Origin: Oscillospiraceae bacterium | GTDB lineage: Bacteria; Bacillota; Clostridia; Oscillospirales; Oscillospiraceae | Assembly (NCBI GenBank): GCA_902765595.1 | Contig: CACXAQ010000001.1 | Coordinates: forward strand, 183,475 to 247,474 | Length of the DNA: 64,000 nt | Direction: 5' to 3' | Part shown: positions 13,593-58,828 of the stretch, piece by piece | Numbering within the stretch: position 1 is the first letter of the stretch | Layout: the number at the start of each line of letters is the position of its first letter | The notes under the pieces: model-generated | The model's input: the letters and a program-made list of their open reading frames with translations, nothing else | Databases searched by the model: none | Told to the model about the DNA's origin: nothing | Position numbers and translations under genes: made by a program

Positions 13593-14924
13593 TTATACGG
13601 TGGGCAGCGTAAAGGTGGCGGCGTAACGGTCCTGGTCCCACGTGGGCGCGAAGCTGCCGCCCATGGCCTGCAGGATCTTCTCACAGGTGCGCAGCCCGAT
13701 CTTGGTGCTCTCCACCCGGTCCAGATCCTTGGCAATGGCATTGGACATACACACGGAAAGCTGCCCGTCCCGAAGCTCGGAGCGGATCTGGATGGGCTGG
13801 GCCCGGTCTGCGTATTTTTTCGCGTTGGAAACCAGATTATCCAGCACGCGCTTGAGATAGAGCGGGTCGGTGCTGAGCCGGCATTCACCCTCAAAGTCCG
13901 TGCGCTGGATCTCGAAGCCTGCGTCCGCCAGATCAAATTGTGCCTCGCCCAAAAGCTGCTCCAGCAGCAGCCGTCCGTCCAGGGTTTCCTGATTCAGCTC
14001 CAGCTCGGAGCGGCCGAAGACCAGAAAATACTTGAACAGCTCATCTGTCAGGTCCTTCAGCTCCATGGCCTTGTCATAGGCGGAGGCGGCGAACTGCGCG
14101 CTCCGCTCCGGATCCCGGAAGCAGTCCTCGTTCAGAAGCCCCAGGTAGCCGATGAGAGAGGTCATGGGGGTGCGGATGTCGTGGGAGATGGCGGTGATGA
14201 GCTCGGAGTTTGCCTCCCAGGCGCGCCGCTCGTTGCCCATCCGCTGAATCACCGAGTGACGCATGGCGTCCACCTCGACGGCAAGCTGGGACAGCTCGTC
14301 CTCACCCTGCAGGGTGATAGGGGCCTCCAGATCGCCGTCCCCGATGACGTCCGCCTCCCGGGAGAGGCGGATGACGCGCCGGGTCAGGCGGCGGAAATAC
14401 CAGAGCATGATGGCAAAAAAGGCCACAGCTCCCAAAACCACGGCAATGAATCGGTTCAGGTTATCCTCCCGGACCTGGCTGCTGTCGCCGATGGCAATGT
14501 GATAGACTCCGTCGGCAAAGCGCAGGGGGTAGAGCCGCCCGTATTCGCTGGCGTACTGAAGGCGGTTGGGATTGGAGGTGTTGCCGGCGGGGAGGAACTG
14601 CCCGTTGTTCTGCTGCTCAAGCTCTTCATCCCGGAAGATGAGAACGGTGGTATAGGCGTCGTTTCCTGGCCAGCGGGCCACGGCGCTCTCGTCGCTGCCA
14701 TTGATGTGATTGGCGCTGACGTACTTGGAGAAATCCGAGTAGATTTCCGCCTGACGGGAGGCCACCGATTCGGGACTCATATAGATCCGGTCCAGCGCCA
14801 GACTGCCCAGCCCGTAGACGACCTCATACACCGCCCCAGCGCACAGGAGAGCCAGCAGGATCATGTACAGAAGCTTTGCGTCCAGGGAGCGGGGCAGGTG
14901 GATCAGACGCTTGCGCTCAGTCAA
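13593..14924 (-). CDS. Sensor histidine kinase (membrane), partner of the adjacent OmpR regulator
   Basis: 443 residues: membrane segment 18-40, extracellular region of about 120 residues, second segment 160-178, HAMP-like linker 179-230, and the dimerisation box ISHDIRTPMTS with phospho-acceptor His248. The N-box is LDNLVSNAKKYAD at 361-373. The ATP-lid region is unusual: instead of DxGxG and GxGxG blocks it reads SNAIAKDLDRVESTKIGLRTC. A compact lid of this kind occurs in some Firmicutes kinases, but weak activity is possible. It overlaps the regulator gene by 8 bases and lies divergent from a solute-binding lipoprotein that may present the signal. Confidence 0.9.
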   Translation of the reverse strand: MTERKRLIHLPRSLDAKLLYMILLALLCAGAVYEVVYGLGSLALDRIYMSPESVASRQAEIYSDFSKYVSANHINGSDESAVARWPGNDAYTTVLIFRDEELEQQNNGQFLPAGNTSNPNRLQYASEYGRLYPLRFADGVYHIAIGDSSQVREDNLNRFIAVVLGAVAFFAIMLWYFRRLTRRVIRLSREADVIGDGDLEAPITLQGEDELSQLAVEVDAMRHSVIQRMGNERRAWEANSELITAISHDIRTPMTSLIGYLGLLNEDCFRDPERSAQFAASAYDKAMELKDLTDELFKYFLVFGRSELELNQETLDGRLLLEQLLGEAQFDLADAGFEIQRTDFEGECRLSTDPLYLKRVLDNLVSNAKKYADRAQPIQIRSELRDGQLSVCMSNAIAKDLDRVESTKIGLRTCEKILQAMGGSFAPTWDQDRYAATFTLPTV

Positions 14925-15606
14925 TTTGATAACCCCTTCCCCAGACGGTGCGGAGGATCCTGGGGCTTGAGGGATTCTCCTCGATCTTCCGGCGGACGTT
15001 CAGCACGTGGACCATGACGGTGTTGCCGGAGCCGGAGAGGAACTTGGCACCCCAGACCGCTTCGTACAGCTCCGGCGCGGTGACGATGGTGCCGCGCTTT
15101 TGCAGCAGGTATTCCAGAATGGCGTATTCGGTATCCGTCAGCACAACGGGCTTGCCGTTGGACTTGACGGAGTGGGCGGCAAAATCCACTTCCAGGTTAT
15201 CGATGGTCAGGACCGTAGCGGGCTTGCCCCGGTACTCCTTGTAGCGGCGCAGCAGGGAGCTGACCTTGGCCAGCAGCTCCGCCTGGGAAAAAGGCTTGGA
15301 CAGAAAATCGTCTCCGCCGCTTTCATAGGCCTGGACCCGGTCGTTTTCCGCGGATTTTGCGGTGAGAAACAGTACCGGCGCGGTGGAAAACTCCCGGAGC
15401 TTGGAGCAGGTCTGGATCCCGTCCATCCCGGGCATCATCACGTCCAGGACCACCAGGTCCGTGTCGGGGTTTTCCTGCAGAAAGGCAACGGCGGAGGGCC
15501 CGTCCGGCGCCTCCGAGACGACATAGCTCTCCGACAGCAGAAGCCGGAGCACTTTACGAATATCAGGATCATCGTCCACGATCAGAATACGGGAAGCATC
15601 AGCCAT
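14917..15606 (-). CDS. OmpR/PhoB-family response regulator
   Basis: 229 residues: receiver domain with acidic pocket DDD at 11-13, phospho-acceptor Asp55 in VVLDVMMPGMDG and the conserved KPF lysine, followed by a winged-helix domain ending in RTVWGRGYQID. The start at 15606 follows AAGGAGAT; the in-frame ATG at 15657 lies inside the predicted promoter. CTTAAG direct repeats 20 bases upstream of its -35 element suggest autoregulation, and the same repeats precede other genes here. It shares a divergent control region with the lipoprotein at 15774. Confidence 0.95.
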   Translation of the reverse strand: MADASRILIVDDDPDIRKVLRLLLSESYVVSEAPDGPSAVAFLQENPDTDLVVLDVMMPGMDGIQTCSKLREFSTAPVLFLTAKSAENDRVQAYESGGDDFLSKPFSQAELLAKVSSLLRRYKEYRGKPATVLTIDNLEVDFAAHSVKSNGKPVVLTDTEYAILEYLLQKRGTIVTAPELYEAVWGAKFLSGSGNTVMVHVLNVRRKIEENPSSPRILRTVWGRGYQID

Positions 15607-15629
15607 ACGATCATCTCCTTTTCTCCTGC

Positions 15630-15657
15630 ATTGTATCACATTTTTCCCGGGAAACAA
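15630..15657 (-). promoter_or_regulatory. Promoter of the response-regulator/kinase pair
   Basis: On the minus strand TTGTTT (15657-15652), 16-base spacer, TACAAT (15635-15630). Confidence 0.65.
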
Positions 15658-15773: not shown

Positions 15774-18173
15774 ATGAAAAAGACGATTCGCTCTGTGCTG
15801 GGACTGCTGCTGGTCCTGTGCATGACGCTGAGCCTTGCCGCCTGCGGGGGAAAGGAAGATACCCCGCAGGGCCAGGAACAGCATCCTGAGATGGTCTATA
15901 CGGCCAAATCCGAGAAGATCGATACCACGCAGGCGGAGGAAGGCATTTCGCCCACAGCCTATACCGACGACGGCTTTTACGGCGTGAGCTACGGCAAGGT
16001 CGCGGACGGCGTGGCCCCCGAAGGCGCTGTGGTGGAGTGGGAAGGCCAGTATGACGTTTACGGCTACCGCCTGTTCTTTGTAGGCTACGACGGCACCGTG
16101 CGCGAGCTCAGTGAGTACACCCCCCTGGAGCCGACAGAGGATCCGGGCGACAAGACCAACTTCTCCTCCGGCAGCAATTTAGCCACGATGTTCGTGGACG
16201 AGAACGGTGACCTGACCCTGGTCGAGAACCTCTACACCAACTGGTTCGACGGGACGGAGGACGAACTGAATTCCAACACCTGGGACGATGCCTTCTGGGA
16301 AAAGTACAAGAGCGTTTCGGAGTATTACATCCGGAAACTCGATCCCCAGGGCAAAGAGCTGAGCAGCGTGAAGCTGGACTTCAACACGGAGAACGCCTGG
16401 CTGGACTTTTACCGCTGCGTCTTTGACAGCGAGGGCAACATGATCGTTCTCGGCGACCAGACCCTGTACGCCTTCGCGCCGGACGGAAGCCTGAAGTTTC
16501 AGATGGAGACCGAGCTTTGGCCCAACAGCATCGTAAAGCTGCTGGACGGCACCATCGCCGTGGCCGCCTGGGGCGATAACGATCTGGAGCTGTATCCGCT
16601 GGATCTGCAGAAGCGCAGCTTCGGCACTCCTTCCAAGCTGCCGAGCCAGGCCAACGATCTGCTGCCCGGCGGCGGGGAGTATGATTTCTGCTACCGCAAC
16701 GGCATGTATCTTTACGGCTATAAGGTGGAGACCGAAGAGAATACCAAGATCATCAACTGGATGGACGTGGATATCAACGGCAACAACGTCAGCGGCTTCG
16801 TCCTGAAGCCGGACGGCTCCATCGTGTGCGTGATCAACACCTGGAAGGGTGACCGCACCGACTGCGAGGTCGCCACCATCACAAAAGTCCCCTATGATTC
16901 CGTTCCCCATAAAGAGACTCTTACCATGGCGGTGATGTACTCCGGCGATGTTTTTGACAAGGTCATCGACTTCAACCGTCACAGTGACACCGTCCGCATC
17001 CAGCTTCTGGATTATTCCGAGTACAATGACTACGAGAACGGCGACTATGACGCCGGCCGCACCAAGCTTCTGACGGAGATCCTCTCCGGCGAAGTGCCCG
17101 ACATCATCGCCCTGAACCAGCTCCCCTATCAGCAGTTTGCATCCAAGGGCCTGCTGGAGGATCTGTACCCTTACTTTGACAGCGATCCCGAGCTGAACCG
17201 GGAGGACTTCTTCTCCAACGTGTTCCAGGCGCTGGAAGTGGATGGAAAGCTCTATGAGATCACGCCTTCCTTCAATGTCCAGACACTGATCGGCGCCGCC
17301 AGCGTGGTGGGCAAGAAGCCAGGCTGGACCTATGAGGATCTGCAGGCCGCGCTGGCCACCATGCCCGAGGGCTGCGATCCCCTGGATATGTACACCACCC
17401 GGGAAGACATGCTGCGGATCCTGGTATACGCGGATCTGGACCACTTTGTGGACTGGACCAACGGCAAGTGCAGCTTTGAAAACGACGATTTTATCCAGTT
17501 GCTGGAGTTTGCAGCCATGTTCCCGGATTCCATCCCCGACGACGTGGAGTGGGAGAGCCCCAGTGACCGCATCGCCCAGGGCAGACAGATGCTCAGCACC
17601 GCGTATCTCTACAGTGTGGACTCCATGCTCTATAACGACGTGCAGTTCGGCGAGAGCGGCTGCACCTTCATCGGCTACCCCACCAATAACGGCGTGGGCA
17701 GCATGATGAGCCTGGACGCAGGCTACGGCATCAGTGCCCGCTGCCAGCACAAGGAAGAGGCCTGGGAATTCCTGCGCAGCTTCCTGCTGGAGGAGGCCCA
17801 GGAGAGTGTCTGGGGCATCCCTGTGAGCCTGAAGGCCTATCAGAAGCAGCTGGAAGCGGCCATGACGCCGGAGTATGAGATGGACGAGAACGGGAAGATC
17901 AAGCTGGACGAAGAGGGCAATAAGGTCCAGATCCCCCGCACCAGCTACTGGGATGAGACCGGTGAACATCCGATCTACGCCATGACCCAGGAACAGGCAG
18001 ACAAGCTGTGGGAGGCGGTCACCACCTGCACCAAGGTGATGAACTTTGACGACAGCATCTTCGACATCGTGTATGAACAGGCCCAGGCCTACTTTGCCGG
18101 CCAGAAGAGCGCCCAGGATGTTGCCCGGCTGATCCAGAGCAAGGTCACCATCTACGTCAACGAGCAGCGCTGA
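15774..18173 (+). CDS. Large solute-binding lipoprotein (propeller-like region plus family-1 SBP), paralog A
   Basis: 799 residues. A signal peptide ends in the lipobox LAAC (Cys24). Residues about 50-375 are beta-rich with repeated phrases such as YYIRKLDPQGKEL, VFDSEGNMIVLGD and YAFAPDGSLKF, suggesting a propeller-like fold. From about 381 a family-1 extracellular solute-binding domain starts (TMAVMYSGDVFDKVIDFN), with GLLEDLYPYFD, PGWTYEDLQAALATMPEGC and DHFVDWTNGKCSF. It ends in a conserved tail YFAGQKSAQDVARLIQSK. Two close paralogs are at 34101 and in the C-terminus of the protein at 55509. It has its own promoter and terminator, separate from the permeases 190 bases on. The ligand cannot be read; the SBP family mostly binds oligosaccharides. 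Confidence 0.9.
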   Translation: MKKTIRSVLGLLLVLCMTLSLAACGGKEDTPQGQEQHPEMVYTAKSEKIDTTQAEEGISPTAYTDDGFYGVSYGKVADGVAPEGAVVEWEGQYDVYGYRLFFVGYDGTVRELSEYTPLEPTEDPGDKTNFSSGSNLATMFVDENGDLTLVENLYTNWFDGTEDELNSNTWDDAFWEKYKSVSEYYIRKLDPQGKELSSVKLDFNTENAWLDFYRCVFDSEGNMIVLGDQTLYAFAPDGSLKFQMETELWPNSIVKLLDGTIAVAAWGDNDLELYPLDLQKRSFGTPSKLPSQANDLLPGGGEYDFCYRNGMYLYGYKVETEENTKIINWMDVDINGNNVSGFVLKPDGSIVCVINTWKGDRTDCEVATITKVPYDSVPHKETLTMAVMYSGDVFDKVIDFNRHSDTVRIQLLDYSEYNDYENGDYDAGRTKLLTEILSGEVPDIIALNQLPYQQFASKGLLEDLYPYFDSDPELNREDFFSNVFQALEVDGKLYEITPSFNVQTLIGAASVVGKKPGWTYEDLQAALATMPEGCDPLDMYTTREDMLRILVYADLDHFVDWTNGKCSFENDDFIQLLEFAAMFPDSIPDDVEWESPSDRIAQGRQMLSTAYLYSVDSMLYNDVQFGESGCTFIGYPTNNGVGSMMSLDAGYGISARCQHKEEAWEFLRSFLLEEAQESVWGIPVSLKAYQKQLEAAMTPEYEMDENGKIKLDEEGNKVQIPRTSYWDETGEHPIYAMTQEQADKLWEAVTTCTKVMNFDDSIFDIVYEQAQAYFAGQKSAQDVARLIQSKVTIYVNEQR

Positions 18174-31394: not shown

Positions 31395-32087
31395 GTGTAC
31401 AACATTCTCATCTGCGACGACGACAAGGACATCGTCTCCGCCCTGAAGATCTATCTGGAGTCCGAGGGCTACCGGACCTTTGAGGCCTATAACGGCAAAG
31501 AGGCTCTGGCCATCCTGGACCGGGAGGACGTGCATCTGGTGCTGCTGGACGTGATGATGCCCGGCATGGACGGCATCACCGCCCTGGCAAAGCTCCGGGA
31601 GAGCTCCAACGTGCCCGTGATCCTGCTGACGGCCAAGAGCGAGGACACCGACAAGGTCCTGGGCCTGAACGTAGGGGCGGACGATTACGTCACCAAGCCC
31701 TTTAACCCCGTGGAGCTGCAGGCCCGGGTCCGCTCCCAGCTTCGGCGCTATCTCCAGCTGGGCGGCGGCGCGGTGAAGGAGGATGTGATCCAGATCGGCG
31801 GCATCCGGCTGGATGACGCCAGTAAGACCGTCACCGTGGACGGGGAGGCCGTCAGCCTGACGCCGCGGGAGTACGACATCCTCAAGCTCCTGATGCAAAA
31901 CCCCGGGCGGGTCTTCCACCCCCGGGACCTGTACCGCAAGGTCTGGAACGAGGAGCCCTTCGGCGCGGAGAGCACGGTCGCGGTACACATCCGGCACCTC
32001 CGGGAAAAGATCGAGATCGACCCTGCCGAGCCCCGGTATCTCCGGGCAGTCTGGGGCCAGGGTTATAAGATGGAAAGGGGAAAATGA
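31395..32087 (+). CDS. OmpR/PhoB-family response regulator
   Basis: 230 residues: receiver domain with DDD at 8-10, phospho-acceptor Asp52 in LLDVMMPGMDG, TAKSED and KPFNP, then a winged-helix domain from about 130 (IQIGGIRLDDASKTV ... LTPREYDILKLLM ... RAVWGQGYKME). The start is GTG at 31395 after GAGGTGAAAG. Divergent in sequence from the regulator at 14917, but both promoters carry CTTAAR repeats. One base separates its stop from the kinase start. Confidence 0.95.
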   Translation: MYNILICDDDKDIVSALKIYLESEGYRTFEAYNGKEALAILDREDVHLVLLDVMMPGMDGITALAKLRESSNVPVILLTAKSEDTDKVLGLNVGADDYVTKPFNPVELQARVRSQLRRYLQLGGGAVKEDVIQIGGIRLDDASKTVTVDGEAVSLTPREYDILKLLMQNPGRVFHPRDLYRKVWNEEPFGAESTVAVHIRHLREKIEIDPAEPRYLRAVWGQGYKMERGK

Positions 32088-32088
32088 C

Positions 32089-34086
32089 ATGAAGAAGCTA
32101 TACGGCAGCTTTGCGGCAAAGCTCATCGCCGTGATCCTGCTCTGCCTGCTGGTGCTGGCCTTTGTGGGCTCCGCCATTGCAGCGGGGAATATCTACTCCT
32201 GGGGCGGATATTCCGGCAGTCAGGAGGAAGTGAGGAAAACTGTTTACAGGAACACGGGGACGCAGGGGCTGAACAGCGTCGGCCGTGCCTATGTGGAAGG
32301 CCGGCACATCTTAGGCTTTACCGTTCCGGAGAAAGACAGCTTCTGGTACGAGATATACGACAACGAGGGGAATCTGCTGGAGTCCAATTATGACGGCGGG
32401 AAGACCCTTTGGGAGGGTGAGATGTGCTTCGGGCCGGAGTACAGCCTGGAGGTCTCCGGCGAGGAACCGGAAGCATTCGAGGAGGTCACGCCGACTCCTG
32501 ATCCCACCGCTCCCGCGACTGCGGCGCGTCCCACGCCGGCTCCGGTGCAGATCTGGAAGCTCACAAACATGCGGGACAATAAGCTCCATACCTTCACCAG
32601 CGAAAATGATTATCTCCAGTGGGTAGACGACAACAGCGTTACCGTGCGGGGTTATCTGCCGGATCCGATGCCGAGCTACTACGCCGCCTCCCGGGAACTG
32701 GCCATGGCGGAAAGCCTCTATGCTTACCGCTATACCTTCCTGTGGATCCTGGGCCTCAGCTTCCTTCTGGGCGTGCTGGTCTTCATCTTCCTGCTCTGCG
32801 CCGCGGGGCACCGGAAGGATACCGAGGAGATCGCCCCCAGCTTTGTGGAAAAGATCCCCTTTGATCTCTTTACGCTGCTGATCATCGGTCTGATCGCGAT
32901 CTGCCTGACCCCGATCAACGTCGGCTTGGACTTGCCGGAGTTCCTGGTGGTCCTGGTCCCCATGATCCTTTGCATAGGGCTTCTGTTCCTGCTCTGGTGC
33001 GTGAGCTTTGCCGTGCGGGTGAAGCTGGGCAGACTCTGGAGCGATACCCTCTGCTGCAAGCTCTTCGGACTTCTGGGCAAGGGCCTTCGCTCGCTGCCCC
33101 TGGTCTGGAAATGGGCCGTTGTCCTGGCCGTGCTGGCCATTCTTGACCTGCTCCTGCGGGAGAGCGCGGTCTGGTCCGAAAATCGGACCGCTTTCCACTG
33201 GTTCTGCTCCTGGCTGGTACTGGGCGGGGCCACGCTCTACGCGGTGCTGGCCTTCCGCCGGCTGCGGAAGGGCGCAAAGGAGATCGCAGACGGCGATCTG
33301 AGCTGCACGGTGGACGACAAATATCTGGTGGCGGATCTGAAGGATCACGCCCACGATCTGAACCATATCCGGGACGGACTCAACAACGCCGTGGAGGAGC
33401 GGATGAAGTCCGAGCGCTTCCGCACGGAGCTGATCACCAACGTCTCCCACGACATCAAGACCCCGCTGACCTCCATCGTGAACTATGTGGACCTCCTGCA
33501 GAAGGAGGAGCCGGAAAACGAGAAGCAGCGGGAGTATCTGGAGGTTCTCTCCCGCCAGTCCGGAAAGCTGAAAAAGCTGATCGAGGACCTGATCGAGGCG
33601 TCCAAGGCCTCTACCGGGAACCTGACCGTGGACCTGGAGCCCTGCGAGCTGGGGGTCCTGCTGGACCAGACGTCCGGCGAGTACGGCGAAAAGCTGGAGA
33701 GCGCCGGCCTGGAGCTGGTGCTGCAAAAGCCGGAGAAGCCCGTGCGGGTGATGGCCGACGGGCGGCACCTCTGGCGGGTGTTCGACAACCTGCTCAACAA
33801 CATCGTGAAATACGCCCAGCCGGGTACCCGGGTCTATCTAAGCTTGTGCGAGGAAAACGGGAAAGCCCGGGTAGACTTCCGCAACATTTCCCGGGAGCAG
33901 CTGAACATCAGCGCCCAGGAGCTGACGGAGCGTTTCGTCCGTGGCGACGCCTCCCGCAATACTGAGGGCAGCGGCCTGGGCCTTGCCATTGCCATGAGCC
34001 TGATGCGGCTGCAGAAGGGGAACATGGACATCACGGTGGACGGGGACCTGTTCAAAGTCAGTCTGTCCTTTGATACGATCCGCTGA
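32089..34086 (+). CDS. Multi-pass sensor histidine kinase
   Basis: 665 residues. One membrane segment at about 10-32, an extracellular region to about 210 containing a Pro/Thr-rich stretch (TPTPDPTAPATAARPTPAP), then about five further segments between 212 and 395. A HAMP-like stretch KGAKEIADGDLSCTVDD precedes the H-box ITNVSHDIKTPLTS (His near 451). N-box LLNNIVKYA and the G-box TEGSGLGLAIA are intact, so the catalytic domain looks active. It is followed 15 bases later by solute-binding lipoprotein B, which could present ligand to the extracellular region. Confidence 0.93.
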   Translation: MKKLYGSFAAKLIAVILLCLLVLAFVGSAIAAGNIYSWGGYSGSQEEVRKTVYRNTGTQGLNSVGRAYVEGRHILGFTVPEKDSFWYEIYDNEGNLLESNYDGGKTLWEGEMCFGPEYSLEVSGEEPEAFEEVTPTPDPTAPATAARPTPAPVQIWKLTNMRDNKLHTFTSENDYLQWVDDNSVTVRGYLPDPMPSYYAASRELAMAESLYAYRYTFLWILGLSFLLGVLVFIFLLCAAGHRKDTEEIAPSFVEKIPFDLFTLLIIGLIAICLTPINVGLDLPEFLVVLVPMILCIGLLFLLWCVSFAVRVKLGRLWSDTLCCKLFGLLGKGLRSLPLVWKWAVVLAVLAILDLLLRESAVWSENRTAFHWFCSWLVLGGATLYAVLAFRRLRKGAKEIADGDLSCTVDDKYLVADLKDHAHDLNHIRDGLNNAVEERMKSERFRTELITNVSHDIKTPLTSIVNYVDLLQKEEPENEKQREYLEVLSRQSGKLKKLIEDLIEASKASTGNLTVDLEPCELGVLLDQTSGEYGEKLESAGLELVLQKPEKPVRVMADGRHLWRVFDNLLNNIVKYAQPGTRVYLSLCEENGKARVDFRNISREQLNISAQELTERFVRGDASRNTEGSGLGLAIAMSLMRLQKGNMDITVDGDLFKVSLSFDTIR

Positions 34087-34100
34087 AAAGGAGAAGCAAA

Positions 34101-36431
34101 ATGAAAAAACTGAAATTGCTGCCGCTGCTCTTCCTGGCGCTGCTGTGTGCCTGCCTGCTGACCGGCTGCGGGAAGGAAAAAACCGAGGAGCCTTCAGAGG
34201 CGACGGAGAGCGGCATGATCTATACCTCCAGCTTTACCCCGATCCCGTGGAACCAGGAAAACGGCCTGGACCCTCTGACGGTCACGGAGGACGGCTTCTA
34301 CGCCTCCTGCTATGAAAAACAGCCCGGGGCGGAGGATGAATACCGCCAGACGATATATTATGTAAACCAAAATGGCGAGGCGCAGCGGCTGGCATACGAG
34401 TTTCTGCCCCTGCCGGAAAACACGGAGGATCTGCCGAATTACAGCGCGGGGAGCAACGTAAACAGCCTGTTCGTGCTGCCAAGCGGAGAGCTTCTCACGC
34501 TGGAATCCGTGTACCGCACCTGGTCGGACAACGCGGATGCCAGCGGCTGGGAGGACTATCACAATGAGTACAGCCACTGGCTCCGCCGGATGGATTCCGC
34601 GGGAAAGGAGCTCTCTTCCGTCAAGCTGGACTGGGAAGCGGATGGGGAGGACGCCAATCTGAATACCTACGGCGCTGTCGTGGACACGGAGGGCAGGATC
34701 TGGGTGGATGAAAATGAGCGGGTCCTGGTGTTCGACACAGACGGCAAATGCATCGCGACCGTCGATGTGGGGGACTGGGTGAACAAGCTGGTCCTGCTCT
34801 CCGACGGTCGGGTGGGCGCCATCGTCTGGGGCCGGAGCAGCCCGGAGCTTGCGATCCTGGACGCCGAGAAGGGAAGCGTTGAGGAGCGCCTCGCCCTGGA
34901 CCCCTATCCCGAGCAGATCTATCCCGGCAGCGGGGACTATGCGTTTCTCTACAGCAGCGGCACCCGCATCTATGGCTGTGATATGGCGGAGAAGGCCAGC
35001 ACAGAGCTGCTGAACCTGCTGGACTGTGATCTGACGGCGGATCAGCTCCGGTTTCTGACCGCCCGGGAAGACGGCAGCTTTACGGGGCTGTCCGGCGATA
35101 GTACGGACTGGAGCTTCGTTACCCTGCGTCAGGTGCCCAGAAGCTCTGTTGCGGAAAAGCAGGTGCTGACGCTGGGGGCACTTTATCCCGAGGAAGTCAA
35201 CGACGCGGTGATCCGCTTCAACCGCCGGCACCCGGACGTGCGCGTGGAGATCGTGGACTACTCCCAGTATGCCGACGCCGATTCCGATGAGGACGTACTG
35301 GAAGGACTGAGCAAGCTCACCACCGAGATCATGGCCGGCAATATGCCGGACCTGCTGGCGCTGCAGACATTGCCTTATGAGCAGCTTGCGGCCAAGGGGC
35401 TGCTGGAGGACCTCTATCCCTGGATCGATAAAGACACGGAGCTGAGCCGGGAGGACTTCATCCCCAGCGTCCTGCAGGCGTCCGAAATGGACGGAAAGCT
35501 CTATCAGGCGTCGCCCGGTTTTTCGGTGCTCACCCTGATCGGAGCTCCTGACGTGGTGGGGGAGCGCACCGGCTGGACTTTTGACGAGCTGGAGGCGGCC
35601 CTGGCCACCATGCCGGAGGGCTGCACGCCCCTGGACCCCAACATGAGCCGGGACGAGGTGCTGATGATGTGCCTGTTCGTGGATATGGGGAGTTATGTAA
35701 ACTGGACGGACGCCAGCTGCGACTTTGAGAACGAGGACTTTTACAAGCTGCTGCAGTTCTGCACCAGGTTCCCGGCGGAACCGGATTACAGCGCGGATAA
35801 CGGAAATGTGACCGGTCGGATCTCCGCCGGCAAGCAGATGCTCATGGATACAAGCATCTCCAGTCTGGACGAGATCAGCTATAACGACCAGTATTTCGGC
35901 GGTAGCTGCAGCTATGTGGGCTATCCCACCCGCAGCGGCAGCGGCAGCGTCCTGATGCTCTCCAACGGTTACGCCATGAGCGCAGGCTGCGAAAACAAGG
36001 AGGCGGCCTGGGAGTTCCTGCGCATGTTCCTGGAGCCGGAGTATCAGCGCCAGCAGTACAATCTGCCCCTGCGCCGGGACGTGCTGGATGAGCAGATCCA
36101 GGCTGCCGCCATCGAGTATGAGAAGGACGAGAAGGGCGAGTACCGTCTGGACGAAGAGGGCAATCGGATCCCCGTTTCCCGGGGCGGCATGGGCATGAGC
36201 GACGAATACGGCAACATGGTGGAGTTTGAGCTGTACGGTCTGACGGACGAGCAGGTCGAGCGCTTCATGAAGGTGATCGAGTCGGCGGATAAGTCCGTAG
36301 ACCTGAATACCCGCATCTACTCTATCGTCAGGGAAGAGGCGTCCGCCTTCTTTGCGGGGCAGAAGAGCCCGGAAGAGGTGGCGAAGCTGATCCAGACAAA
36401 AGTCAGCCTGTATCTGGGCGAACAGGGATAA
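34101..36431 (+). CDS. Large solute-binding lipoprotein (propeller-like region plus family-1 SBP), paralog B
   Basis: 776 residues with lipobox LLTGC (Cys23). The architecture equals paralog A: a beta-rich region to about 350 (RRMDSAGKELSSVKLDWEAD, VVDTEGRIWVDENERVLVF) and a family-1 SBP domain from about 354 (LTLGALYPEEVNDAVIRFN), with AAKGLLEDLYPWID, TGWTFDELEAALATMPEGC and YVNWTDASCDFENEDF. The tail FFAGQKSPEEVAKLIQTKV is nearly that of paralog A. It is the third gene of a regulator-kinase operon with no permease nearby, which argues for a sensory rather than a transport role. AAGGAG precedes the start. Confidence 0.9.
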   Translation: MKKLKLLPLLFLALLCACLLTGCGKEKTEEPSEATESGMIYTSSFTPIPWNQENGLDPLTVTEDGFYASCYEKQPGAEDEYRQTIYYVNQNGEAQRLAYEFLPLPENTEDLPNYSAGSNVNSLFVLPSGELLTLESVYRTWSDNADASGWEDYHNEYSHWLRRMDSAGKELSSVKLDWEADGEDANLNTYGAVVDTEGRIWVDENERVLVFDTDGKCIATVDVGDWVNKLVLLSDGRVGAIVWGRSSPELAILDAEKGSVEERLALDPYPEQIYPGSGDYAFLYSSGTRIYGCDMAEKASTELLNLLDCDLTADQLRFLTAREDGSFTGLSGDSTDWSFVTLRQVPRSSVAEKQVLTLGALYPEEVNDAVIRFNRRHPDVRVEIVDYSQYADADSDEDVLEGLSKLTTEIMAGNMPDLLALQTLPYEQLAAKGLLEDLYPWIDKDTELSREDFIPSVLQASEMDGKLYQASPGFSVLTLIGAPDVVGERTGWTFDELEAALATMPEGCTPLDPNMSRDEVLMMCLFVDMGSYVNWTDASCDFENEDFYKLLQFCTRFPAEPDYSADNGNVTGRISAGKQMLMDTSISSLDEISYNDQYFGGSCSYVGYPTRSGSGSVLMLSNGYAMSAGCENKEAAWEFLRMFLEPEYQRQQYNLPLRRDVLDEQIQAAAIEYEKDEKGEYRLDEEGNRIPVSRGGMGMSDEYGNMVEFELYGLTDEQVERFMKVIESADKSVDLNTRIYSIVREEASAFFAGQKSPEEVAKLIQTKVSLYLGEQG

Positions 36432-54341: not shown

Positions 54342-55004
54342 ATGAAAAAAGAATTGCTGCTTCCGGCACTTGCCGCGGCTTTGATCACCATCGGGATCCT
54401 TGGCTTTGGCGTTTTCCGTCCGAAAACACAGGATCCGGAGCCGCCGGCTGTACAGCCGGCGGAGGTAACGCCGGTCGAGTACGATGATTCGACGCCTGTG
54501 CCCATAGAGCAGGAAGCGTATGAGCCGACACCAAGCCCGATCCCGGAAGAGCCGGTGGAGAGTGAAGAGCCCGACGACCCCATGATGGGCCTGTCCGAGG
54601 AGGACTACGGGGAATTGCTGCGGATCCTGGATGAGATCGGTGAGCAGGAAGCGCCCTTCGCGCTGATGCAGTATGTGCAGTGGAACACAGACGAGACCCT
54701 GGCGCTGATGGACAGGCTTGGGCAGTATGCTGACACAAACGGCCTGAGCTACGAACAGATGCGGGGCATTCTCTATGCCCGGAACAGTCTGGACACGACA
54801 GCCGCCAAGGGCTATGCGCTGCTGCTGAAAAAATGCTATGAGGTGGCTACGATGGACTTTCTGCGGGCCTGGCACGAGACCGGGGAACCGACCGCTCTGA
54901 TGTATGAGGTCACCGGTGTTTCCGCTCCGGAATCCTGTTATAACTGGCTGCACGAAAAATGGGAAATCTGGTGCAGTACGCCTGACTCCGATCCGGAGCC
55001 CTGA
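54342..55004 (+). CDS. Secreted or membrane-anchored protein of unknown function
   Basis: 220 residues not recognised. An N-terminal hydrophobic segment (about 5-24) is followed by a Pro/Glu-rich linker (PTPSPIPEEPVESEEP) and a helical, acidic C-terminal domain from about 80 with EDYGELLRILDEIGEQEAPF, TLALMDRLGQYAD, NSLDTTAAKGYALLLKKCYE and two late cysteines in CYNWLHEKWEIWC. No lipobox cysteine at the end of the segment. AAAGGAAAC precedes the ATG. It is ended by its own terminator just before the blaI-type operon; a link to that system is possible but unsupported. Confidence 0.75.
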   Translation: MKKELLLPALAAALITIGILGFGVFRPKTQDPEPPAVQPAEVTPVEYDDSTPVPIEQEAYEPTPSPIPEEPVESEEPDDPMMGLSEEDYGELLRILDEIGEQEAPFALMQYVQWNTDETLALMDRLGQYADTNGLSYEQMRGILYARNSLDTTAAKGYALLLKKCYEVATMDFLRAWHETGEPTALMYEVTGVSAPESCYNWLHEKWEIWCSTPDSDPEP

Positions 55005-55061: not shown

Positions 55062-55076
55062 GTTGACAATGTAAAC
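55062..55076. promoter_or_regulatory. BlaI-type operator O1
   Basis: GTTGACAATGTAAAC, an imperfect dyad covering the -35 element. It matches O2 at 13 of 15 positions and contains the ACA-x-TGTA-like core of BlaI/MecI operators. Confidence 0.75.
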
Positions 55077-55091
55077 ATAGTTTGCTATACT
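55063..55091 (+). promoter_or_regulatory. Promoter of the BlaI/M56-SBP operon
   Basis: TTGACA at 55063-55068, 17-base spacer, TATACT at 55086-55091; embedded between the two operators. Confidence 0.92.
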
Positions 55092-55106
55092 GTTTACAAC
55101 GTAAAC
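55092..55106. promoter_or_regulatory. BlaI-type operator O2
   Basis: GTTTACAACGTAAAC, a perfect 6-base dyad around AAC directly downstream of the -10. Its centre is 30 bases (about three helical turns) from O1. Confidence 0.8.
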
Positions 55107-55125
55107 AGAGAAAGGAGTGCCACGA

Positions 55126-55512
55126 ATGCCTGAACAAACGACCGCCCTGACTGCTGCGGAGTGGAACTTGATGGAGTGCCTGTGGGAGTGCGCACCCCGC
55201 ACCGGGCGGGAAGCGGTGGACTATTTGCAAAAAAGCGTGGGCTGGAGCCGCAGCACCACGCTTACCATGCTGCGCCGGATGACAGAAAAGGGACTGATCG
55301 TCTGCGAGACGGACGGAGAGGTGATGACCTACCGCCCGCTGATCCGGCGGGAGGATGCGGCCCGGGAGGAGACCCGCAGCTTTTTGGACCGGGTCTATCA
55401 GGGCAGCGTCGGTCTGATGCTCAATGCTATGACCCGGGAGCAGAAGCTGAGCCGCCGGGAGATCGAGGAGCTTTATGAAATCCTCCGACAGGCGGAGGAG
55501 GATGCGCCATGA
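55126..55512 (+). CDS. BlaI/MecI-family repressor
   Basis: 128 residues. The winged-helix domain covers about 1-75: LTAAEWNLMECLWECAP, REAVDYLQKSVGWSRSTTLT (recognition helix region), MLRRMTEKGLIVCET. The C-terminal helices (EETRSFLDRVYQGSVGLML) form the dimer. In the family, the partner membrane protease triggers cleavage in the dimerisation region. The ATG at 55126 follows AAAGGAG; a GTG at 55117 overlaps that site and is rejected. Two matching dyads flank its promoter, and the stop overlaps the M56 gene start (ATGA), as in canonical blaI-blaR1 pairs. Confidence 0.94.
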   Translation: MPEQTTALTAAEWNLMECLWECAPRTGREAVDYLQKSVGWSRSTTLTMLRRMTEKGLIVCETDGEVMTYRPLIRREDAAREETRSFLDRVYQGSVGLMLNAMTREQKLSRREIEELYEILRQAEEDAP

Positions 55513-58500
55513 GGACCTGGATCCTGTCAGCCTCTGCGCTGATCCTACTGATGCTGGGCATGCGGGCGCTGCTAAAGGGGCGGCTTTCCCTGCGCCTGCG
55601 CTATGCCCTGTGGCTGCCGGTGCTGCTGCGGCTGTTGATCCCCGGGAGCTTCTGGACTGTCCCTCAGTTCACAAGGCCGGTAGCGGCGGACCTCTCCGTG
55701 ATCGGAGACCCGGTCCAGCGGCGGGAGTACGCGATCCCCGAGAATCGGGAGCAGGCGTCACTGTTTGTGCTGCCCCAGGAGGATCGGCTGCAGCAGGCGG
55801 CGCCTCAGACGGCGGCATCCGTGTCGCTTCCGGAGACAGCCGCGCCTGACCCGAAGCCTGTCGCCCCGATGGCGGCGCGCTCACACGCTGCGACGCCGAT
55901 TGCCTGGCCCGACGTTCTCCCCTGGATCTGGGGTGCCGGGGCCGCTGCGGTGCTGGGTGCTGCGCTGGGGTCTGAGCTGCGGTTCAGCCTACGCCTGCGC
56001 CGGAGCCGTCAACGCATGGAAGATACAGATACCAGGCTGCCGGTCTACAGCTGCCCATGGCTGAAAACGCCATGCCTGGCCGGAATCCTTCGCCCTGCTG
56101 TTTATCTGCCTGCCGCTCTGCGGGAGGACGAGTCCGCGCTGCGCCATGCGCTGGCCCATGAGCAGGCTCATCTCCGTCACGGCGATCTGCTTTGGTCTCG
56201 GCTGCGCTGCCTCGCCCTGGCCCTGCACTGGTACAATCCTCTGGTATGGCTGGCGGCGCTGCTGTCCAAGCGAGACGGGGAGCTGGCCTGCGACGAGGGC
56301 GCGATTATCCGGCTGGGGGACGCCCAGCGGGCGGCCTATGGACGTACGCTGATCCAACTGAGCTGCCCTGAGCGCCTCGGGATCCTCCGTCCCGTCCCAG
56401 GCATGGCCAGCGGGGGAAAGACCCTGCGAGAGCGGGTCCGACTGATCGCAAGCGGCCCCAAACCCACTGCCTGGGCGCTGGTGCTGGCTCTGTCCGTGTC
56501 GATTCTGGCAACGGGCTGCTCCTTCTCGGAGAAGAAGCCGGAGCAGACGGGACCCTTCTATGAATCCGAGTATCGGTCCCTGGATCTGGGCGGGAAGAAT
56601 GCCACAAGCCTCTTGCTCTCCGGAGAGCGTTTCTATACGGTGGTAACAGAAGAAGGCGAGAGCGGCGCTTTTGAGAGCCGGCTCTACTCCTCGTCCGCAG
56701 ATGGGAGTGACCGGCGGGAGATCCCCATCCAGACACCCATCCTCCCGGAGATCCCGGAGGACGCTGAGGTCCAAAGCTTTTCTCTGGATCAGCTCCTTCC
56801 CGGGGCGGACGGATCGATCCTGGCCCTTGGCGGCACCTTCTATGGGACCCCCGTTGGGCAGGAGTATCTTAACGAAGACGGCACAACGCACTACGCGTAC
56901 AACTGGCACACCGCATTCTTTGCCCTTCGTATCAGCGCGGAAGGGGAAGTGCTGTCCCAGTTCCCAATCAACGGGCAATGGGGCCCGGTCCGGCCCCAGA
57001 CGGATGGCCAGGGGAATCTCTACTTAATAGACGAGTCGGGAGAGCTTCATGTCTACGACACCTCTGGCAGGGAGATCCTGAACATGCATCCTGCCCAGTA
57101 CTGGGAGCAGCTTGTGCGCCTGACCGACGGGCGGGCGGCGGCGGTTTTCCTTAATGGAGGCGCTTCAGAGGTCCACGCTATCGATCCCAAGGACGGGAAG
57201 CTGGAGCTCGTCGCCCGGATCCCGGAGCAGCTGGGGATCACAGTCTTTCCCGGTGCCTTCGGCTGGGATGTGCTGGTGAATAACGGCACCATGCTCTATG
57301 GGGTGAACGCGGCCGGAGAGCGGGGAACGGTAGCTACCTGGCTCAACTGCGATTTGAACGGAAACGAGCTCTTGGGCGTGTTTCCGGATCAGGACGGAGA
57401 GACGATCCGCTGCCTGTTCGGGACCCCGTATGAAGCCGACGGAGATTTTGGCGTGACGACCATCCGGCAGACGGATCAGCCGCCCAGGGAGGACCGCAGG
57501 GTGCTGACCCTGGCCTGCATGGGTCTGGACGACGAGATCGCGGATCTGGTGCTGCACTTCAACCGCACCGAGCCGGACTACCGCATTGAGGTCAAGGATT
57601 ACAGCGGCTACAACACCGCTGCTTCGCCCAGCGCGGGCTACACCCTGCTGAACGCGGAGATCGTGGCGGGGAACGTGCCGGACCTCTTCTGCATCCAGGA
57701 TCTTCCCGTTCGGACCTATGGGGCCCGTGGCCTGTTGGAAGACCTCTGGCCCTTCATCGACGCGGATCAGGAGCTGGGAGGCCGGGACGCGCTGGTGACG
57801 CCCCTCTTCTCCGCCATGGAGCAAAAGGGAAAGCTCTACACCGTCGCCCCCTCTTTTTCCATCTACACCGTGATCGGGCCGAAGGCCACCGTGGGGGATC
57901 GGAGCGGCTGGACCATGGAGGAGTTCCGGGAAGCCTGGAACAAGATGCCGGATGGCTGTACGATCCTGGAACCCTGGTTCGGCAGAGAAAGCGCGCTGAC
58001 CACGTCACTCGTTACGCGAGTGGATCAGTTTGTGGACTGGACCACAGGTACCTGCCGTTTTGACAGCGAGGAATTCCGGGATCTGATCCGCTTCGCGGAC
58101 CTGTTTCCCGAACAGGGGGAATCCGCCGCAAATTACGGCGGCAGCGAGTATGAAAGGATCACAGGCGGAGAGCAGATGCTGCTCTTTACGGCGCTGTCAT
58201 CCTTTGACGACGTGACCTTCCATACGGATTTTTTGGGTGATCAGGCGGTCTACGTGGGTCTGCCCGGGGCCTCCGGCAACGGTAGCGCCTTTGACGTGCC
58301 CTCGGGACTTGCCATGTCGGCAAGCTGTCGACACAAGGATGCAGCCTGGCGCTTTCTGCGAAGAATGCTGGATGCGGATTGGCAGCTCTCCAATGCAGGA
58401 AAGGGAGGGGCTTCGTTCCAGTTCCCCGCGTTTCTCACCAACCGCCGAGCCTTGGAACAGGGCTTCCGGGAAGCGATGCGGGTGGATTATAAAAAGGACG

Positions 58501-58793
58501 AGAAAGGCCAATACCTTCTGGACGTCAACGGAGAGAAAATCGAACAGGCCAAGGGTGGCCGATCCATCGGGCTGGACGGAAAGATCGTTCCTGTATACGC
58601 TATGACCCAGGAACAGGCGGATCGGCTCCTGGAGCTGATCGAGGGGACCACCTGCATGCGCTATTGGGATGACGCCGTGATGGACGTGGTCTTCGACGAG
58701 ATCGGGGACTACTACAGCGGAGAAAAGACCCTGGAGCAGGTCACGGCCGGCATCCAGAAGCGCATGACCATCTACATGGAAGAACAGAAATAA
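55509..58793 (+). CDS. BlaR1-like M56 peptidase fused to propeller-like/SBP sensor (paralog C)
   Basis: 1094 residues. Membrane segments at about 4-22, 33-50 and 136-157 are followed by the M56 zinc peptidase: HEQAH at 217-221 is the HExxH site and ELACDE at 258-263 holds the third ligand. A fourth segment at about 321-336 ends in ILATGC, identical in form to a lipobox (Cys337). Outside follow a beta-rich region to about 660 and a family-1 SBP domain (LTLACMGLDDEIADLVLHFN, ARGLLEDLWPFIDAD, SGWTMEEFREAWNKMPDGC, DQFVDWTTGTCRF). This half is a paralog of the lipoproteins at 15774 and 34101. In BlaR1 the same position holds a penicillin-binding sensor; none is present here. Ligand unknown. Confidence 0.92.
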   Translation: MRTWILSASALILLMLGMRALLKGRLSLRLRYALWLPVLLRLLIPGSFWTVPQFTRPVAADLSVIGDPVQRREYAIPENREQASLFVLPQEDRLQQAAPQTAASVSLPETAAPDPKPVAPMAARSHAATPIAWPDVLPWIWGAGAAAVLGAALGSELRFSLRLRRSRQRMEDTDTRLPVYSCPWLKTPCLAGILRPAVYLPAALREDESALRHALAHEQAHLRHGDLLWSRLRCLALALHWYNPLVWLAALLSKRDGELACDEGAIIRLGDAQRAAYGRTLIQLSCPERLGILRPVPGMASGGKTLRERVRLIASGPKPTAWALVLALSVSILATGCSFSEKKPEQTGPFYESEYRSLDLGGKNATSLLLSGERFYTVVTEEGESGAFESRLYSSSADGSDRREIPIQTPILPEIPEDAEVQSFSLDQLLPGADGSILALGGTFYGTPVGQEYLNEDGTTHYAYNWHTAFFALRISAEGEVLSQFPINGQWGPVRPQTDGQGNLYLIDESGELHVYDTSGREILNMHPAQYWEQLVRLTDGRAAAVFLNGGASEVHAIDPKDGKLELVARIPEQLGITVFPGAFGWDVLVNNGTMLYGVNAAGERGTVATWLNCDLNGNELLGVFPDQDGETIRCLFGTPYEADGDFGVTTIRQTDQPPREDRRVLTLACMGLDDEIADLVLHFNRTEPDYRIEVKDYSGYNTAASPSAGYTLLNAEIVAGNVPDLFCIQDLPVRTYGARGLLEDLWPFIDADQELGGRDALVTPLFSAMEQKGKLYTVAPSFSIYTVIGPKATVGDRSGWTMEEFREAWNKMPDGCTILEPWFGRESALTTSLVTRVDQFVDWTTGTCRFDSEEFRDLIRFADLFPEQGESAANYGGSEYERITGGEQMLLFTALSSFDDVTFHTDFLGDQAVYVGLPGASGNGSAFDVPSGLAMSASCRHKDAAWRFLRRMLDADWQLSNAGKGGASFQFPAFLTNRRALEQGFREAMRVDYKKDEKGQYLLDVNGEKIEQAKGGRSIGLDGKIVPVYAMTQEQADRLLELIEGTTCMRYWDDAVMDVVFDEIGDYYSGEKTLEQVTAGIQKRMTIYMEEQK

Positions 58794-58798
58794 GCAAG

Positions 58799-58828
58799 AA
58801 AAAGGACCGCTGATGCGGTCCTTTTTCG
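58799..58828. terminator. Bidirectional terminator
   Basis: Perfect 12-bp stem (58799-58810 with 58815-58826) with A and T runs, between the M56-SBP gene and cysS. Confidence 0.93.

Follow-up and report, generated by a model that had tools for sequence, protein, structure and literature searches.

What does a BlaR1-like membrane protease respond to when the place of its beta-lactam sensor is taken by other domains? The question is raised by a two-gene operon in a 64,000-nucleotide stretch of DNA from an Oscillospiraceae bacterium (contig CACXAQ010000001.1; the whole stretch is hereafter the window, numbered from its first letter), which encodes a BlaI-family repressor and a protein that joins an M56/BlaR1 protease to a predicted beta-propeller and a predicted sugar-type solute-binding domain (SBP). 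There is no permease and no third gene in this operon, which is probably a BlaI-BlaR1-type transmembrane switch that acts in one step, regulates its own expression and has a new receptor; its architecture is well supported and its mechanism partly supported. The unit and its two genes are:

55062-58793, + strand: the whole unit of twin operators, promoter, repressor gene and fusion gene
55126-55512, + strand: BlaI/MecI-family repressor, 128 amino acids from an ATG
55509-58793, + strand: M56-propeller-SBP fusion open reading frame (ORF), 1094 amino acids, its start overlapping the repressor stop as ATGA

The original prediction, made from the sequence alone, had described a BlaI repressor coupled through ATGA to a protein of this length, and the ORF and Pfam evidence agree with it. 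It had also allowed that a sequencing error at about 56510 might have joined two genes, and the draft state of the source genome (61 contigs, 84% completeness) and the chimeric look of one relative, L036, would fit such an artefact of sequencing or assembly; but the full-length protein, with the same junction and an intact frame, was found in three further genomes, G100 (L033 and L034; 95% identity), G111 (L035; 59%) and G117 (L124/L174; about 54%), which refutes the error and leaves this explanation a negligible chance. The fusion is present in four distinct lineages of one genus (the identical loci L033, L034 and L122 were counted once, as were L035 and L123), and a cross-genome search for M56 and SBP in one protein, which had been proposed, thus found the two parts not always separate. 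Values of dN/dS were 0.39 for the M56 part, 0.29 for the propeller and 0.14 for the SBP against L034, and 0.38, 0.26 and 0.20 against L035, so that in the two pairs computed all three domains are under purifying selection. A genus-wide search gave an M56 match in 84 of 102 genomes, and among the best 30 of these matches that were fetched this sensor occurred only in the four fusion genomes. A search through 245 genomes of the order, scoring no more than three candidates in each, brought up no further fusion, so that distant ones may be missed, and long frames in G006, G021 and G007 had no M56 part. L036 (RUG510) was dropped as a probable chimera because its homology starts abruptly inside the repressor gene; the contig is filed as Bacteroidales and the abrupt start, of a 94% repressor-protease match, lies at L036:5079.

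The protease half matches Peptidase_M56 (PF05569) over residues 5-313 (E 2.7e-38, 132.3 bits against a cut-off of 31), and its transmembrane helices (TM), assigned to the membrane by analogy with BlaR1, are TM1 (residues 2-21), TM2 (28-43), TM3 (133-166) and TM4 (321-337), with a disordered outer loop (49-131) between the second and third and the gluzincin site between the third and fourth. The features of this half are:

55509-56519, + strand: M56 protease half, residues 1-337 (Pfam, AlphaFold2 model)
56157-56171, + strand: HEQAH zinc motif, residues 217-221
56280-56294, + strand: E258-xxx-D262, third zinc ligand and motif, equivalent to E242xxxD246 of S. aureus BlaR1
56517-56519, + strand: C337 at the end of TM4, in a lipobox-like LATG-C

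The intact HEQAH site had been predicted and was confirmed. In an alignment of 78 M56 proteins (L034, L035 and L037-L112, some pairs being near-copies), H217, E218, H221, D226, E258, D262 and Y277 are conserved throughout and R309 in 77; the first seven align with BlaR1 H201, E202, H205, D210, E242, D246 and Y261, for which zinc-binding or catalysis-supporting roles in S. aureus are given in the relevant part of PMC9834060, and R309 is, at a guess from position only, BlaR1 R294. The predicted M56 half carries the complete zinc-site residues of the S. aureus protein.

The part of the protein beyond TM4 consists of two predicted domains:

56556-57473, + strand: beta-propeller, residues about 350-655 (AlphaFold2 models, Foldseek)
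57498-58787, + strand: sugar-type SBP, residues about 664-1093 (AlphaFold2, Foldseek)

By sequence the second of these matches SBP_bac_1 at 23.3 bits, under the cut-off of 26. In a full-length AlphaFold2 model (alignment of 41 sequences, mean pLDDT 76.9) helices reach to residue 337, residues 350-655 are all-beta and residues 664-1093 are alpha/beta, and Foldseek matched the whole model mostly to sugar-binding proteins (CbpC of C. thermocellum, Lmo0181, MalE and others), the best being CbpC (7x0o, E 4.6e-15, TM-score 0.71 by target). Residues 338-664, modelled on their own (pLDDT 82.8, pTM 0.82), were matched to structures which we take to be beta-propellers (best E 6.4e-08), at TM-scores of only about 0.5 that leave the number of blades open. 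A family-1 SBP at the position of the BlaR1 sensor had been predicted, with structure modelling as the check, and the models bear this out, giving a propeller and, over residues 664-1093, a sugar-type SBP fold that the sequence score alone leaves below threshold. A sugar is likely to be the ligand, judging only by the neighbours of the predicted fold.

The fusion might still sense beta-lactams or cell-wall stress by another route, which would accord with the classic role of BlaI-BlaR1 pairs and with the statement, in part of PMC3305447, that BlaI can directly bind a cell-wall dipeptide present in the cytosol. However, no transpeptidase match was found in the fusion at E up to 1 and the operon lacks a third gene, and we hold such sensing to be very improbable. 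The fusion scores 70.9 bits with the NCBIfam model blaR1_generic (cut-off 400) and had no match in PADLOC, where the repressor was only weakly matched.

The receptor also has relatives without a protease, which are stand-alone lipoprotein-like ORFs of about 800 amino acids. One search found them in 58 of 61 genomes of the genus and in 2 of 38 other genomes of the order, and an order-wide search added others from different families. Two, SBPa and SBPb, lie within the window, and both pass the cut-off of a sugar-type SBP family:

13593-15657: two-component system, divergent from SBPa
15774-18173, + strand: SBPa, propeller and SBP, lipoprotein-like, 799 amino acids
18360-20122: ABC permeases (two genes) neighbouring SBPa
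31395-34086, + strand: response regulator and histidine kinase genes, immediately before SBPb
34101-36431, + strand: SBPb, propeller and SBP, lipoprotein-like, 776 amino acids, grouping with the fused sensor

In a maximum-likelihood tree of 36 sensors the four fusions form one clade (100/100) grouped, with moderate support (95/95), with SBPb, and in a tree of 73 M56 halves they again form one clade (99). Since they are monophyletic in both trees, a single fusion event, with the receptor coming from the kinase-linked side of the family, would be the simplest reading. The fused part begins where the mature part of the lipoproteins begins, with Cys, a short linker and the first propeller strand, and it is most likely that the fused receptor shares its origin with the lipoprotein group that feeds kinases and was joined at the end of the signal peptide.

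These relatives bear on whether the SBP half could instead be a transport receptor that delivers sugar in trans to an ABC permease, the M56 half controlling only its amount. When 39 stand-alone loci were typed by their better match to the two window paralogs (several regions end at contig ends), a MalF-like permease was found beside SBPa relatives in 12 of 31 fetched loci, as also in the window, and a divergent two-component system in 19 of the 31. All 9 loci of SBPb, the clade that groups with the fusions (the window and 8 fetched), by contrast have the SBP gene directly after co-oriented genes for a response regulator and a histidine kinase, and a MalF/MalG match was found in none of the 8 fetched. 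This linkage to kinases argues for sensing over transport in the fused protein, its two-gene operon contains no permease, and tethering to a four-helix protease would, in our judgement, be unusual for a transport receptor. A sensing role is the better supported, and delivery to a permease seems to us quite improbable.

The junction allows one more alternative, in which TM4 also serves as the signal peptide of a lipoprotein: signal peptidase II would cut before C337, and the separate chains would act together with no covalent bond between them. LATG-C ends TM4 in all four fusions, a lipobox-like Cys stands at the equivalent boundary in the three stand-alone relatives inspected, and column 337 is Cys in 55 of the 78 aligned M56 proteins, a count that takes in L034 and L035; in most of them T-F-T-G comes next, and 51 of these 55 fit a lipobox pattern. 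Yet the column is otherwise Phe in 15 of 78, with a few Ala, Val, Trp or Ser, and F339 (73 of 78) is conserved above the Cys, alongside T338 (57) and G341 (66), which suggests a structural motif; to our knowledge no internal lipobox is known to be cut, and we count this too against cleavage. The conserved Cys may mark an internal lipobox or else form part of a structural motif, and we regard a cut at this place as unlikely, though worth bearing in mind.

For the BlaI-BlaR1-type switch that we favour, the upstream region supplies the control elements:

55062-55076, + strand: operator O1, GTTGACAATGTAAAC, 15-base dyad overlapping the -35 box
55063-55091, + strand: sigma-70-type promoter, TTGACA-17-TATACT, 11 of 12 consensus positions
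55092-55106, + strand: operator O2, GTTTACAACGTAAAC, 15-base dyad directly behind the -10 box
55110-55117, + strand: ribosome-binding site GAAAGGAG, by sequence

Between O1 and O2, 13 of 15 positions are identical, as had been claimed for these twin dyads, and 4 matches with at most one mismatch (both sites, both strands) were found where 0.02 would be expected per shuffled window. Comparison of the four lineages shows O1 identical at 14-15 of 15 positions and O2 at 13-14, against only 17-21 of the 60 bases preceding O1, which is near chance; the spacing of the two operators is 30 bases in the window and 32 in the other three lineages. The promoter alone is not significant, 1.0 promoter-like site being expected by chance in that stretch, and the three other lineages have TTGACA and 17 bases followed by TAAGAT, TACAAT or TATACT.

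The repressor matches Penicillinase_R (PF03965; E 1.5e-29, 103.1 bits against a cut-off of 22.6) and MecI/BlaI structures in the PDB (E 7e-16 to 2e-11); the gene stands as predicted except for its start, for which ATG 55126, behind GAAAGGAG and giving 128 residues, is better than GTG 55117. A BlaI-like gene lies just upstream of the M56 gene in 77 of 78 loci, the exception being at a contig end. Residues 97-102 of the repressor, LMLNAM, are a candidate cut site, and residue 102, hydrophobic in 77 of 77 BlaI sequences, presumably adjoins the position aligned with the MecI cut site, this alignment being uncertain by one residue. In a loop of the protease half M299 is Met in 72 of 78 proteins. 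Residue 102 and M299 would fit the hydrophobic P1' residue of S. aureus BlaR1, which is described, in the part of PMC9834060 concerned, as cutting itself before Phe284.

In the switch as we picture it, BlaI dimers on O1 and O2 would occupy the -35 box and the start region, keeping the operon low, and the fusion would sit in the membrane with its zinc protease in the cytosol and its propeller and SBP outside, as the sequence, the model and the analogy with BlaR1 suggest. The SBP would close on a small ligand, most probably a sugar or an oligosaccharide, the propeller would relay this closure to TM4 and the outer loop, and the released protease, by analogy with BlaR1, would cut BlaI near residues 101-102, so that the operon would be derepressed until the signal stops. 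Several points weigh against this picture. The full-length model has a pTM of 0.56 and its arrangement of domains is not reliable; the fused-sensor branch is long (1.53), with that of the outgroup longer still; the permeases beside SBPa relatives make a transport role real for the family overall; whether ligand turns the signal on or off cannot be told; and there is no visible output gene, no second pair of sites within 60 bases having been found in the source genome (G000), G100, G111 or G117, which are 79-91% complete.

This last result came from the proposed scan for a regulon, which recovered the operon's own sites in the four incomplete genomes but no further twin site. The pattern GTTKACAAYGTAAAC (2 mismatches, G000 only) gave 10 matches on both strands against 4 for a reversed-pattern control, and GTYKACANHGTMAAC (1 mismatch) gave 14 against 9 in G000, 18 against 8 in G100, 24 against 10 in G111 and 28 against 13 in G117, four of the matches in each genome being the operon's own. 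Single operator-like sites are somewhat more frequent than the control, and the repressor may have a single-site target elsewhere in the genome; the two sites of the next closest pair, on G111 contig 35, are separated by 211 bases. A lone site with zero mismatch to the degenerate pattern lies away from the operon at G100 contig 38:72526-72540. The system may amplify its own receptor, or act on single weak operators, or its protease may have other substrates.

Whether the present fusion is a singular case was considered from related M56 proteins, found in Clostridia records (many gut or rumen by title), which share the conserved core with BlaI upstream and have C-terminal parts of 61-1163 residues, some cut by contig ends. 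References were available for 109 loci, of which 9 are loci of the four fusions and 74 and 26 were scanned with Pfam. The 74 (L037-L112 without L068 and L087, whose C-terminal parts are all but absent) were chosen by likeness of the M56 half to the fusion, are not a random sample, and include six pairs that are 80-95% alike, either along the whole length or along part of it; the 26 (L125-L150) are from the genus, and L097 and L129, identical over 422 amino acids, place one protein in both sets. At E 0.001 a few of the 74 had Pfam matches, some of them under the curated cut-off: Big_14 (6), RHS (2), Big_2 (2) and FG-GAP (2), and one each of SBP_bac_5, transpeptidase, LRR, BNR/sortilin, lysozyme-inhibitor families and others. 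Of 30 outer parts inspected singly, 21 had no Pfam match at all. Among the 26, beta-helix was found in 11, LRR in 3 and transpeptidase in 1. The transpeptidase matches of the two sets are probably one protein (the E-value is the same), which leaves a true BlaR1-like sensor in about 1 of 99 distinct proteins.

The SBP_bac_5 case is L051:6001-10389 of Christensenella sp. UBA1214, a 1462-residue protein (E 3.1e-31) that, like the present one, has BlaI upstream and an M56 part followed by a solute-binding domain. It differs in that its SBP belongs to the unrelated family 5 and its M56 half does not stand next to the fusions in the M56 tree; by these sequence comparisons it is a second, independent M56 and SBP protein. 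The claim that no such pairing is known was overstated, given L051 and the diversity of outer parts. Among open-licence papers a literature search returned no account of an M56 protein fused to a solute-binding domain, nor of sensor diversity in the M56 family, and PMC11237719 had no passage relevant to M56 or BlaR. In the passages of PMC7593790 on BlaR1 and MecR1 the only sensor described is for beta-lactams, and in a section of PMC9834060 the M. tuberculosis homologue is without an equivalent sensor domain.

The diversity of sensors, with L051, suggests that the present fusion is one example of a wider pattern. We see an even chance that Clostridia use BlaI-M56 as a general chassis for signalling, in a way comparable to two-component systems, with many unrelated sensors on it, rarely ones for beta-lactams, and that sensors move between these classes, a receptor of the kinase-linked clade having here been transplanted at its signal peptide end. 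BlaR1 being known mainly as a beta-lactam sensor, general sensor swapping would matter more than the single fusion, and if receptors on Clostridia M56 proteases are exchangeable, many gut and rumen "BlaR1" annotations may denote proteins that sense other things and are not resistance regulators. One receptor family would then drive either a kinase or a protease, and the fusion offers a clean test of BlaR1 transmembrane signalling, with the same protease under a reversible ligand in place of irreversible acylation.

Compared with BlaI-BlaR1 and MecI-MecR1 of Staphylococcus and Bacillus (MEROPS M56), the present system has the same repressor family, gluzincin residues and TM helices with an outer C-terminal sensor, and BlaR1 systems likewise have two operators and coupled genes; but propeller and SBP replace the class-D-type penicillin-binding sensor, the operon contains no beta-lactamase, and only the operon itself is visibly controlled. 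The RR2-HK2-SBPb operons of the same genus (window 31395-36431) have the homologous propeller and SBP module, there as a separate protein with two-component output. In Ruminiclostridium cellulolyticum the CuaD-CuaS-CuaR system also uses a sugar-binding SBP as receptor for a signalling protein, CuaD binding cellobiose and the kinase CuaS in the account given in part of PMC10384115; there, however, the lipoprotein SBP is a polypeptide of its own, works through a histidine kinase and is not fused to a protease. The system is a direct precedent for SBP-assisted sensing. C. thermocellum BlaI_0696 and BlaI_1845, according to the portion of PMC8457756 that deals with them, need two inverted-repeat pairs (twin dyads, four protomers) and control regulons of three and one operons, and so resemble the present case in their twin dyads and tiny self-regulated regulons, whereas their operators differ in sequence and the authors take the BlaR1 partners to be beta-lactam sensors.

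Close relatives carry the operon at different genomic locations. Between the window and L034:5552-9285 the 95% homology runs from O1 exactly to the stop codon and the flanks are unmatched; in G100 and G111 the operon lies elsewhere, with the window-type flanking genes on separate contigs, and in G117 two further ORFs are added between them. The genes flanking the unit in the window and in G117 are presumably obg and cysS. A mobile cassette could be thought of as a reading of these sharp homology borders. In the window a terminator-like hairpin follows the operon:

58798-58827, scored on the - strand: terminator-like hairpin 3' of the operon, preceding an opposite-strand gene

Upstream, a 220-amino-acid lipoprotein-like ORF without a Pfam match occupies 54342-55004, and no + strand ORF of at least 150 amino acids was found there in G117. 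Directly upstream of the operon in UBA3758 (L034:177-5067) are two further SBP-type ORFs (415 and 743 amino acids) and a gene that we take to be VanZ-like. The source genome has a second blaI-M56 pair on contig 7 (L002:850-2385), with an M56 protein of 377 amino acids that lacks a large outer sensor, and L139:3-842 holds a fragment of an SBP-type ORF, weakly similar to the sensor (23% identity), with an M56 gene of the genus on the same fetched piece.

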